Virus record (IMG/VR): IMGVR_UViG_3300006790_000129
Coordinates: 1 to 22,078 of that record
Length of the DNA: 22,078 bases
Strand: one strand, 5' to 3'
Origin: a virus
Of this stretch, positions 19,659 through 22,078 are shown one piece after another. The notes beneath the pieces were generated by a model that saw only the letters and a list, made by a program, of their open reading frames with translations, had not been told where the DNA came from and made no database searches. The position numbers were made by a program, and so were the translations under genes. Positions within the stretch are counted from its first letter, which is position 1. The number at the start of each line of letters is the position of its first letter.

Positions 19659-20765
19659 TCAAGCGGCAGCTTGCAATTCGATAGCTGCGGCAGGGTTCAG
19701 GGTTCCAGCACCCATAGCCAGACGACCAACAATCAGGTCACCTTGGTACATGGTGTGGACATCAGAACCGGTAGTCTGGATGGAAGGACCGATAGCTTCC
19801 ACAACAGCGGCAGCATCCTTATAGTAGATGAGGCCAGCGTGGCTTGCGAAGTCACCGGAGTAATCATTGTTCTCACCTTCAACAGAGGTAACAGTACCAG
19901 CCATGAAAGGCAGGTTGTTAGAACGACGAATCTTAATACCAGCAATCGAGTACAGACCTTCACCAGTGTTCAGAGAACCCTGAGTGGTGGTACCGTAATC
20001 GTTGTTGAGGATGTTGCTGTCGGTCTGAGAAATCAATGCATAATATTGCCGTGGCGAGAGCACAGCGGTGCGCCCTTCACGAGGCATGTTCTTTTCATCC
20101 AGGATGGAAGCAGCTTCAAAGAAGGCGTCCACAAGTGCCTGAGCATTATACTCTTTGTTGGCACCCAAACGGATGATAGAACCACCAGGCTCAGGACCAG
20201 GTGCTGCAGTAATAGGATGAGCTTCACGTGCTGCCAAGGCAATCGTACGGAAGATCTTCTTGTCATACGCTTCGGCCATGGCGTGGCCAATCTTGGCGCT
20301 GATCTCACTCCGCAAGGAGTAATGCGCAAGCGTTTCATCGAGGTCGTACACAAATGCACTGCTAATCAGCAGGTCATCCATCACGATGGTCTTCTCAGCC
20401 ACGGGAGGTGCAGCACTCTTACCGGACTCACCCATGTCAATGCCGAGAATCGGCTGACCAGGCACATGGTAGTCAGCGGTCATACGACCGGTGAAGATGA
20501 ACTGAGCAGCCTTGCCGTTACGCAGTGAACGAGACTGAACAGTACCTTTGGCGATACAGGCACTTTCATATGCCTTGATCATCTCGCCAGTAAACAGTTT
20601 CAGGTAGGTAGCATACTTTGCATCGTATGCAGACACGACCTGACCGTTGATAGTAACGGTATCACCGAACTTGGTACGACCAAGACCGGGGTTCCGGTTA
20701 ATAGAACCGGTGGAAGTGCCACGCATCTCGTTAGAGTCGTAGGCATTTACATTCCAAGTAGCCAT
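19659..20765 (-). CDS. gp10: major capsid protein, T7 gp10A-like
   Basis: This 368-residue protein forms the icosahedral shell (T7-type variant of the HK97 fold). Family blocks are in order: YLKLFTGEMIKAYE near residue 53, SRSLRNGKAAQFIFTGRM, ADYHVPGQPILG, KTIVMDDLLISSAFVYDLDE, and YSLRSEISAKIGHAMAEAYD. T7 gp10A has matching segments ('LFLKVFGGEVLTAF', 'SGKSAQFPVLGR', 'YDVRSEYTSQLG'). Length is typical (T7 gp10A is 345). The gene looks richer in G and C than the tail genes. No Shine-Dalgarno precedes the ATG, which is surprising for the most abundant virion protein. A noncoding leader with riboswitch, micro-ORF and candidate promoter lies upstream. Confidence 0.96.
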   Translation of the reverse strand: MATWNVNAYDSNEMRGTSTGSINRNPGLGRTKFGDTVTINGQVVSAYDAKYATYLKLFTGEMIKAYESACIAKGTVQSRSLRNGKAAQFIFTGRMTADYHVPGQPILGIDMGESGKSAAPPVAEKTIVMDDLLISSAFVYDLDETLAHYSLRSEISAKIGHAMAEAYDKKIFRTIALAAREAHPITAAPGPEPGGSIIRLGANKEYNAQALVDAFFEAASILDEKNMPREGRTAVLSPRQYYALISQTDSNILNNDYGTTTQGSLNTGEGLYSIAGIKIRRSNNLPFMAGTVTSVEGENNDYSGDFASHAGLIYYKDAAAVVEAIGPSIQTTGSDVHTMYQGDLIVGRLAMGAGTLNPAAAIELQAAA

Positions 20766-20795: not shown

Positions 20796-20809
20796 TCTTA
20801 GATCTAAGA
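20796..20809. repeat. perfect 14-bp palindrome before the capsid gene
   Basis: TCTTAGATCTAAGA is a perfect dyad 31 bases upstream of the capsid start. It may be a protein-binding site or a small hairpin in the leader. It has no T tract on either strand that would make it a terminator. Confidence 0.5.
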
Positions 20810-20832
20810 TTTATTCAAATTTTTTGTGGTAA

Positions 20833-20860
20833 ATTTTAACGTTTACCGAACGTTCGGCAA
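20833..20860 (-). promoter_or_regulatory. candidate sigma-70-type promoter for the capsid block
   Basis: On the minus strand TTGCCG (20860-20855, four of six to the -35 consensus) and TAAAAT (20838-20833, five of six to the -10) are separated by 16 bases. Transcription would start near 20826, about 60 bases before the capsid ATG. The perfect palindrome CCGAACGTTCGG (20846-20857) overlaps the spacer and -35 edge, as an operator might. The match is by eye and the region is AT-rich. A phage-polymerase promoter could also lie here. Confidence 0.3.
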
Positions 20861-20892
20861 AGGGTTATCCCGTAGGGCCACAGTGCCAAATT

Positions 20893-20935
20893 GCTAAGGG
20901 AGGAATCGAACCTCCCCAAGTCCACCAGGATTAGC
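20893..20935 (-). ncRNA. stem-loop resembling a tRNA T-arm and acceptor end
   Basis: On the minus strand GGGAGG (20916-20911) pairs with CCTCCC (20903-20898) around the seven-base loop TTCGATT, the form of a tRNA T-loop. An outer stem GCTAA (20935-20931) pairs with TTAGC (20897-20893). The outer stem contains the TAA of the micro-peptide. No D-arm, anticodon arm or full acceptor stem is present, so this is not a complete tRNA. It could be a tRNA 3'-end fragment or simply part of the leader RNA. Confidence 0.5.
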
Positions 20936-20981
20936 GAGTGGTGTAGTAAGGTACGCCACGATAGACGAGACGAATCTTCAT
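20931..20981 (-). CDS. 16-residue YRG micro-peptide controlled by the riboswitch
   Basis: ATG at 20981 opens MKIRLVYRGVPYYTTR, then TAA. GGAG stands seven bases upstream, a good ribosome site, directly 3' of the aptamer. Known context: downstream-peptide (type II glutamine) riboswitches of marine picocyanobacteria and their phages precede short ORFs of about 17-100 codons. The 'Y-R-G-V-x-Y' start also resembles the N-terminus of the cyanobacterial/phage DUF4278 family, whose members carry a conserved YRG. This peptide holds only that opening. It may act itself (the host aptamer also controls a glutamine synthetase inactivating factor), or be a leader peptide for the capsid mRNA. Function is unknown. 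Confidence 0.7.
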   Translation of the reverse strand: MKIRLVYRGVPYYTTR

Positions 20982-20993
20982 AGGAATACTCCA

Positions 20994-21056
20994 ATGACCT
21001 GTGCCCCGTTCCATGCACAGGCGTCATGCGTCCCCTAAGGGATGAACGGACGAGAT
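20994..21056 (-). promoter_or_regulatory. type II glutamine riboswitch (downstream-peptide motif)
   Basis: The minus-strand RNA folds as follows. CCGUUC (21049-21044) is followed by a small hairpin UCCC-UUAG-GGGA (21042-21031). Next comes CGCAUGAC, overlapping a hairpin formed by AUGA (21027-21024) and CCUGUGC (21021-21015) with GCACAGG-UCAU (21004-20994), with CG bulged. The loop holds GAACGG (21011-21006), which is complementary to CCGUUC and gives a pseudoknot. Order, pseudoknot, the GUUCAUCC...GGACGCAUGA core and an adjacent Shine-Dalgarno plus short ORF match the downstream-peptide glutamine aptamer as I know it. It begins just after the upstream gene's stop. The SD lies two bases past the aptamer, so translation control is likely. 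Confidence 0.82.
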
Positions 21057-21060
21057 TCAA

Positions 21061-21468
21061 TCAAACAACAGTAACGTTAATAGTGTAGACTTTAGTACCA
21101 GTCATCTGTGTGTTAGTCACAGTACACTTGAGTTCGTAGCTACCAGCAGTTGCGTTAGAAGCAGCGGTAACGGTCTTGGTAGCAGCGTCAGTCAGGGTAG
21201 TGGAGGTGGTGGTATCAGTCTTAGTCCAAGCATAGGTAGAAGCCACACCATTCACTTTCTCAGGAACGTTGTCCACAGTGAACTTAGTGGAGGTACTCTT
21301 AGAAACAGTAGTCTTAGCAGGAGTACCATCTTCAGCGCAGATGTAACCGTAGGAACCGGTCTTACCATAACCGTCAATAACCTGTCCAACAGGTTGACCC
21401 AGAGGATTCTCGGTGTTATCACCAGCAGGCATCCGTGCGGTCTCAAAGATAAAAGGAGAAGTAGTCAT
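21061..21468 (-). CDS. Ig-like domain structural protein (putative capsid decoration)
   Basis: This 135-residue protein is almost entirely beta-type and threonine-rich. Residues about 1-50 contain PAGDNTENPLGQPVGQVIDGYG. Residues about 50-135 look like an immunoglobulin/PKD-like domain: alternating strands with VNGVASTYAWTKTD, then ATAGSYELKCTVTNTQ and a final TKVYTINVTVV strand. Ig-like domains are frequent on phage heads, tails and fibers, where they bind surfaces weakly. Being next to the capsid gene favours a head decoration role (inference). It starts seven bases after the upstream stop in an AT-only spacer with no Shine-Dalgarno. Its stop abuts the riboswitch leader. Confidence 0.75.
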   Translation of the reverse strand: MTTSPFIFETARMPAGDNTENPLGQPVGQVIDGYGKTGSYGYICAEDGTPAKTTVSKSTSTKFTVDNVPEKVNGVASTYAWTKTDTTTSTTLTDAATKTVTAASNATAGSYELKCTVTNTQMTGTKVYTINVTVV

Positions 21469-21475
21469 TAATTAA

Positions 21476-21697
21476 TTACCAATCAGCGAGAGTATTAGGT
21501 TTGACGGCCTTACCAATTTCAGCAGTACCGTCTTTATTTTTACCAACCAAGATCTTGCAATCAGCAAGACGTTGTGCCATAGTACCAGAGTTAGGGTTAT
21601 CACCTTGACTTTGGTTACCGGGGATGAACCACTGATCGGTTGATGTATTTGTAACGTACAGAACTTTAGAGATGTTCAAATCACGTTGTGCAGTCAT
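21476..21697 (-). CDS. 73-residue protein of unknown function in the pre-capsid cluster
   Basis: The ATG at 21697 shares a base with the upstream TGA and is placed seven bases after GGAGG, a good ribosome site. An in-frame GTG one codon earlier is too close to that site. The protein starts MTAQRDLNISKVLYVTNTST and continues with WFIPGNQSQGDNPNSG, then a short helix-like AQRLADCKILVGK. It is soluble, with no membrane segment. I do not recognise the family. Between two structural-type genes it is most likely a minor virion component, but nothing in the sequence proves this. Confidence 0.7.
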   Translation of the reverse strand: MTAQRDLNISKVLYVTNTSTDQWFIPGNQSQGDNPNSGTMAQRLADCKILVGKNKDGTAEIGKAVKPNTLADW

Positions 21698-22078
21698 CAC
21701 TCAACCTCCACAAAGGTCTTATCGAGGATCTTAATAGCACCGTTAGAGCAGTCAACAATCAGGAACTTCCAGGAAGCAGGTTCTGCATCAGAAGAAGTGT
21801 TAGCAACCAGGTTGTTTACGTTGTCACCATCAGCAGTCTTAGCATCCAACTGAGTCTGAATAGAGGAGGTAACACCATCCACATAATTCAGTTCTTCTGG
21901 AGTAGCCGTAATAGCAGTAGTACTATCAGCAGCGAGAACAGGGAGGCAACCAGACTGGTTAGGGAGTTTAATGGTACGGTCTGCTGTAGGGTCAACAACA
22001 GTAAGAGTAGACTCAAAGTCATCAGCAGTAGCACCTTCAAACACAACAGCGTTAGCAGCCTGCATGGTCACTGTATCG
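21697..22078 (-). CDS. fiber-like structural protein, probably 5'-truncated by the window edge
   Basis: The frame stays open to the right edge (in-frame D-T-V-T-M before QAANAVVFEG), so the GTG at 22071 or ATG at 22065 may be internal. The visible 124-plus residues contain FESTLTVVDPTADRTIKLPN, then ATPEELNYVDGVTSSIQTQL. This block is typical of repeated shaft segments in tail fibers of marine cyanophages. The C-terminal part (WKFLIVDCSNGAIKILDKTF) is beta-like. It may be a head fiber or a small fiber-type virion protein encoded just before the capsid gene. The stop overlaps the start of the next gene. Confidence 0.72.
   Translation of the reverse strand, partial: DTVTMQAANAVVFEGATADDFESTLTVVDPTADRTIKLPNQSGCLPVLAADSTTAITATPEELNYVDGVTSSIQTQLDAKTADGDNVNNLVANTSSDAEPASWKFLIVDCSNGAIKILDKTFVEVE

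Follow-up and report, generated by a model that had tools for sequence, protein, structure and literature searches.

Glutamine-II riboswitches form an RNA class that is already known. They act as ON switches, probably at the level of translation, with the ligand contacts lying in a pseudoknot (PMC6698751). In picocyanobacteria this type II glutamine switch precedes DUF4278 genes, and one Prochlorococcus member has been shown to switch on its downstream ORF in response to glutamine (PMC6316151). Host genes of the DUF4278 group are reported to be lowered at nitrogen exhaustion or raised in nitrogen excess (PMC1242208, PMC2518516, PMC6316151). Phages have glutamine riboswitches as well: T4-like marine phages carry them, in the tmRNA leader of Melnitz (PMC9004378) and in S-CREM1 (PMC9964418). 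As far as the accessible portions of these two accounts go, the switches are of the glnA type where typed, they sit on tmRNA or unrelated genes of myoviruses, and no micropeptide is described with them (PMC9004378, PMC9964418). Within our incomplete coverage of the literature, we found no report of Glutamine-II in T7-like cyanophages, of a phage YRG micropeptide or of a tRNA-like capsid leader; priority is uncertain in each case.

Here we analyse a stretch of viral DNA of 22,078 nt (IMGVR_UViG_3300006790_000129, hereafter the window), which forms a 22-kb virus record by itself. It carries a true Glutamine-II switch of a T7-like cyanophage, which very probably provides translational ON control of a 16-codon micropeptide that would mimic host proteins. 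The capsid protein is 77–81% identical to those of S-CBP4 and S-CBP3, phages of Synechococcus CB0101 and the closest relatives in the phage collection. Because of the capsid match and this kinship, we regard the window as a T7-like cyanophage fragment of the Autographiviridae type. The features of the region are, in the direction of transcription:

Ending 10 bases upstream of the aptamer: 135-aa ORF
20997–21051, minus strand: aptamer of a Glutamine-II riboswitch, with pseudoknot CGUUC/GAACG and the hairpins P1 and P2, from RF01704, covariation and a compensatory pseudoknot pair
20989–20992, minus strand: Shine-Dalgarno GGAG, 7 nt 5' of the micro-ORF ATG, read from the sequence
20931–20981, minus strand: micro-ORF MKIRLVYRGVPYYTTR, 16 codons, YRGxxY micropeptide, from conservation of YRGxxY and its place behind the switch
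20893–20935, minus strand: tRNA-like acceptor/T-arm element, from P1 complementarity and a tRNA-Gly at the equivalent place in relatives
20862–20890, minus strand: divergent copy of the leader motif GCC-(UACG hairpin)-GAYAMC, whose hairpin covaries in relatives
20828–20857, minus strand: palindrome CCGAACGTTCGG (20857–20846) and hairpin GGTAAA..TTTACC (20847–20828), from positional alignment with relatives
20796–20809, minus strand: second palindrome TCTTAGATCTAAGA before the capsid gene, from palindrome length against shuffles
19659–20765, minus strand: T7-like major capsid protein gene, the next gene downstream (phrog_267 major head protein, E 5.6e-72)

The RF01704 model (Glutamine-II, or Downstream-peptide) matches over its full length (1–60 of 60) and scores 48.7 bits, well over its cut-off of 33, at E 3e-9; it is the sole Rfam family to reach its gathering cut-off in the entire 22-kb window. 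The Glutamine-I model (glnA, RF01739) scores 18.5 bits on the window, under its cut-off of 35. In the aptamer, CCGTTC pairs with GAACGG. There is a small hairpin (CCC-TTAG-GGG), the linker reads CGCATGA, and the P2 stem is formed by CCTGTGC/GCACAGG, with a possible extension through TGA/TCA. An earlier note on this DNA, made from its letters, had proposed a type II glutamine riboswitch here and suggested a comparison with both Rfam models; the identification is confirmed for Downstream-peptide and not for glnA. All the parts it had named (CCGUUC/GAACGG, a small GC hairpin, a CGCAUGA core, a Shine-Dalgarno and a 16-codon ORF) are present, and its "bulged 11-bp" hairpin roughly agrees with P2 in the extended form. 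The limits it gave, 20994–21056, are in the right place and a few bases wider than the aptamer. The GGAG is placed identically in P-SSP7, P-GSP1, P-SSP2 and P-SSP3. Two small proteins are encoded just upstream of the riboswitch (21697–22071 and 21061–21468, both minus strand); one is similar to a portion of a baseplate/tail-fibre protein (phrog_8215, E 3e-9), and no PHROG matches the second.

The phage switch and the host Glutamine-II elements of Prochlorococcus and marine Synechococcus (RF01704; PMC2864571, PMC6698751, PMC6316151) have the same aptamer and the same glutamine-site residues. They also share a layout of aptamer, Shine-Dalgarno and a short ORF with a YRG motif. Unlike the host loci, the phage copy lies between psbA and the capsid gene, and its ORF has one YRG unit where hosts have three repeats. 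The Yfr6 or PMM1846-type DUF4278 genes of Prochlorococcus (PMC1242208, PMC2518516, PMC6316151) are likewise short ORFs behind the same leader, but their peptides of 33 to about 65 aa have two or three YRG/YRR repeats, whereas the phage peptide stops after one. Genome contigs with the aptamer pattern came mostly from Prochlorococcus and marine Synechococcus, and a YRG..YRR..YRG or related YRG ORF followed the aptamer in 116 of the 120 host loci listed from these contigs. The commonest host protein in this position was DUF4278 (E 9.4e-11). A YRG motif behind a glutamine riboswitch is found in phage and hosts alike. One riboswitch match lies on a contig of a supposedly bacterial MAG, Porticoccaceae NAT127 (locus L157); since one locus of the genome scan encodes a phage-type peptide, MTIKVTYKYRGIAYTKSKTI, this may be a binned cyanophage contig. 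The phage peptide should not be taken simply for a glutamine-synthetase inhibitor, because in the inhibitor IF17 the DUF4278 part is N-terminal and distinct from the inhibitory part.

Phage relatives keep the aptamer fold, pseudoknot included, through compensatory changes. In an alignment of 15 sequences (the window and 14 cultured phages) that was compared with 500 shuffles, 97.3% of the cells were paired (83.7% in shuffles), 11 of 17 pairs showed changes on both sides (3.6 in shuffles) and the covariation score was 0.403 (0.120 in shuffles). No shuffle equalled any of these three values, and sliding the pairing partner by a single base abolished the signal. The pseudoknot CGUUC/GAACG, the C19:G41 pair and the P1 and P2 stems are all backed by covariation. 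The glutamine-site residues of the crystal structure, C1, G2, G18, C19, A33, C39, G40, G41 and G42, with numbering mapped by hand from PMC6698751, are kept throughout the alignment.

The pattern used for scanning fixes the letters of the pseudoknot, so that pair statistics on the C:G set inform on P1 and P2 only. In SS120-1, the pseudoknot reads CGUUU...GAAACG where others have CGUUC...GGAACG, and we scanned the viral contigs for all four letter combinations at the C5:G36 pair. C:G occurred in at least 120 viral loci and U:A in 17 contigs, while the single-change forms C-A and U-G were absent from these scans. The YRG ORF was present in 16 of the 17 U:A contigs, and the seventeenth locus lies near a contig end. 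The pseudoknot, on whose fate in homologous phages the earlier note had made its proposal depend, is therefore retained by a compensatory change from C:G to U:A.

A YRG..Y ORF follows the switch in all 119 viral loci listed, excluding loci cut by a contig end; this set takes in the window and five cultured phages. Across the 85 distinct 30-base stretches among the viral matches listed, the Y, R, G and second Y are invariant and the third codon positions are free, with CGT, CGC, CGG, CGA, AGA and AGG used for arginine and GGC, GGT, GGG and GGA for glycine. Since the amino acids of YRGxxY are fixed while the codons wobble freely, we conclude that the micro-ORF is translated. The N-terminal extensions are highly variable, both in sequence and in length, and the phage peptides, which span 13–60 aa, are unannotated in P-SSP7 and several relatives. 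Longer phage peptides scored 24.5 and 22.9 bits against DUF4278 (PF14105, cut-off 25.3), and two others gave no match to this profile; the 16 aa of the window peptide are below the 20-aa minimum of the Pfam scan. Among PHROGs, only phrog_5049, of unknown function, matched one longer relative (E 1.2e-5).

When the leader DNA was compared with 50,697 phage records, it matched cyanophages only, namely P-SSP7, P-GSP1, P-SSP2, P-SSP3 and S-RIP1. In each case the match falls in a stretch with no annotation, which has psbA or a small ORF on one side and the capsid gene on the other. All five contain RF01704 above the cut-off. A further 18 cultured cyanophages were picked purely by capsid similarity, blind to the riboswitch; ten of them were above the cut-off as well, bringing the total to 15 of 23 cultured T7-like cyanophage records, P-SSP7 included. 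Within the capsid-picked set, no switch was found in S-SRP01, S-CBP2, S-CBP42, P60, Syn5 and S-B28. A scan of viral contigs added at least 120 further riboswitch loci. The placement before a capsid gene, which had at first been thought very unusual, is thus common in T7-like cyanophages, and the survey of related phages that had been suggested shows the place between psbA and the capsid gene to be shared by many.

Two cultured phages depart from this picture. The aptamer of S-CBP3 (L248:2126–2176) is strongly divergent and scores 21.7 bits with RF01739 and 16.1 with RF01704, both below the cut-off; it is intermediate between glutamine types I and II and has a YRG ORF behind it. S-SBP1 (L260, about 2140–2185) no longer has the aptamer's 5' half but keeps P2 and the YRG ORF, and so offers a natural example in which riboswitch loss can be studied. 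Both phages thus retain the YRG ORF although the aptamer is truncated in one and strongly divergent in the other, which shows that the switch can be dispensed with.

The DNA between the micro-ORF and the capsid gene contains a conserved motif specific to capsid-gene leaders, joined to a stripped-down tRNA-like element. The core of the leader consists of GCC-(short hairpin with UACG-type loop)-GAYAMC, followed by CCGTC..GACGG and then by a hairpin GTGG-GATAGA-CCAC. The copy in the window is short (GCC-C-UACG-G-GATAAC) and was missed by a stricter pattern. Searched with a pattern, 16 of 18 loci from cultured cyanopodoviruses proved to have the motif, and among the cultured loci L248–L264 it is also present in the riboswitch-less Syn5, P60 and S-B28. 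The pairs of its hairpin covary strongly (CG, UA and GC at one pair), with none broken in 68 sequences, and the GTGG/CCAC hairpin has compensated variants (GTAGG/CCTAC, GTGTG/CACAC and, in S-CBP3, GTCTG/CAGAC). An automatic consensus fold of the leader core pairs other parts of the core. In the window, CCGAACGTTCGG and GGTAAA..TTTACC are the counterpart of CCGTCTAGACGG and GTGG-GATAGA-CCAC in relatives. Rfam gave no family at useful scores for the capsid leader, and this structured RNA, present in nearly every T7-like cyanophage examined, is apparently undescribed.

Among 10 complete genomes, 8 have a single copy each of the GACGG..CCACA block, and the first gene after the leader block codes for the capsid protein in 81 of 81 loci. 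A promoter for the phage RNA polymerase, another candidate for the CCGTCTAGACGG/GTGGGATAGACCACA block, is disfavoured by this single occurrence, by its absence from other genes and by the constant capsid neighbour. The longest palindromes in the leaders average 11.2, compared with 5.75 in shuffles. A second element 75 nt past the leader core in 87 loci stays palindromic despite sequence change (CCAAACGTTTGG, CTCTGGATCCAGAG, TCTTAGATCTAAGA).

Upstream of the core, the tRNA-like element of the window has a P1 stem of GCTAA (20935–20931) and TTAGC (20897–20893) and a T-stem GGGAGG/CCTCCC with T-loop TTCGATT (20916–20898). No tRNA was called in the window, which shows no complete cloverleaf. A real tRNA-Gly(UCC) precedes the leader core in NATL1A-7 (L251:2237–2307) and in loci L286, L315 and L319 only, and in these four viruses no more than one base separates its 3' end from the core. 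Loci L035 and L049 have degenerate tRNA forms at this position. At one fixed place before the capsid gene, the element thus grades from a complete tRNA-Gly(UCC), by way of degenerate tRNA, into a mimic with no more than acceptor and T-arm. Many other leaders, the window included, have just an acceptor-like stem and a T-arm, whose loop is of the T type (for instance TTCGATT or TGCAAGT). In the remaining leaders, about half, the element is replaced by a 9-bp hairpin with a variable stem and a nearly invariant 15-nt loop, CACCUCAGAGUCGGA, just before the core (L261:2345, L264:2313, L047 and others).

The acceptor-like P1 has a mean of 4.33 Watson-Crick bp, as opposed to 2.54 ± 0.23 with partners swapped (200 permutations), and the result was repeated in an independent set (3.72 vs 2.52 ± 0.30). 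Acceptor and T-stem together come to 10–13 bp; in tRNA the acceptor/T-arm stack is 12 bp. In 38 of 43 loci, the final codons of the micro-ORF supply the 5' strand of the stem, which in the window is the last codon and the stop; in some leaders the element is far from the micro-ORF. A split tmRNA was considered and rejected, since the T-arm gives only a local 12.8-bit match to the tmRNA model. Acceptor/T-arm-like folds within longer transcripts, which tRNA enzymes could cut, are also present in tRNA-like processing elements such as plant mitochondrial t-elements and the C4 RNA of phages P1 and P7. The phage element differs from these in that it joins a new capsid-leader motif and is partly built from micro-ORF codons; cleavage of it is putative.

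By analogy with published work on the class, high host glutamine would close the pseudoknot on its ligand, and this closure would free the ribosome site of the 16-codon ORF. With plentiful glutamine the phage would then make the YRG peptide, its version of the host DUF4278 YRGxxY repeat, and the peptide may act on the nitrogen pathway of the host, at the targets of the host DUF4278 proteins, either as their mimic or as their competitor. The RNA class and the micro-ORF proposed in the earlier note are supported here; glutamine as the ligand and translational ON control are supported by extension from papers on the class (PMC6698751, PMC6316151). For a type II switch in a cyanophage, which that note took as reported, the papers found offer the T4-like cases named above, glnA where typed. 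We looked by eye for a conserved anti-Shine-Dalgarno in the aptamers of several phages and found no common solution, so the expression platform is putative. The minimum-energy fold of the window leader is uninformative on this point, because such folds cannot contain a pseudoknot.

The same note had extended glutamine control perhaps to the late head genes of the capsid operon. A switch that directly sets capsid or late operon expression would fit the observation that, in 90 of the 93 loci listed with enough downstream sequence, the first conserved gene to follow is the capsid gene, usually about 230–500 nt away (in the window its ATG is at 20765, 165 nt after the micro-ORF). However, in P-SSP10, 9515-10a, NATL2A-133 and NATL1A-7 the switch lies well upstream and can directly follow psbA, so that other genes separate it from the capsid gene. 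Loci selected by the leader and having at least 1.5 kb upstream contain the switch in 21 of 37 cases, 131–1196 nt from the leader; the other 16 keep the capsid leader with no switch in the DNA examined. There is also no terminator-like site between switch and capsid gene. Because of the distance, the intervening genes, the switch-less leaders and the missing terminator, we take the peptide, rather than the capsid gene, to be what the switch regulates, and we regard direct capsid control as very improbable. An indirect coupling is speculative and rather unlikely: a ribosome ending the micro-ORF would open the tRNA-like stem and so gate cutting by RNase P or RNase Z before the capsid gene. The above-chance P1 pairing, its overlap with the micro-ORF, the tRNA-sized stack with its T-type loop and, in four viruses, a genuine tRNA-Gly(UCC) that runs exactly up to the leader motif all speak for such a coupling. 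Its direction, with peptide synthesis preventing and glutamine shortage allowing processing of the capsid mRNA leader, is equally tentative. It is weakened by the CACCUCAGAGUCGGA-loop hairpin that takes this place in about half of the leaders, by elements far from the micro-ORF and by the window structure with P1 enforced, which is 1.1 kcal/mol above the best fold.

The micro-ORF might instead be a regulatory leader peptide, with translation mattering and the product not, as its very short length in the window and the joining of its 3' end to an RNA stem could suggest. We consider this quite improbable, since the YRGxxY core is kept at the amino acid level through silent third-position changes and matches host DUF4278, while the N-terminal extensions vary freely. 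Hosts do have the same switch-peptide pair, and psbA lies upstream of the switch in 50 of the 74 loci among the matches listed, so that a functionless host relic acquired together with psbA could be imagined. This is extremely improbable: present selection is evident from compensatory changes and from coding conservation, seen across many genera of phages, and the pair also occurs in SS120-1 and S-TIP28, which have no psbA in the region fetched. Under the best reading, a glutamine switch for the YRG peptide, the capsid gene is a neighbour and not the target.

These findings bear on whether an infecting marine phage senses the nitrogen of its host; these ocean viruses probably do sense the nitrogen state of the host while replicating. 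As cultured model phages such as P-SSP7 on Prochlorococcus MED4 carry the conserved glutamine sensor, nitrogen sensing becomes directly testable. If the indirect coupling were true, nitrogen status would set virion output through RNA processing. The phage peptide family is tied by sequence and by its switch to the nitrogen-regulated host DUF4278 proteins, and it may reveal the function of DUF4278.
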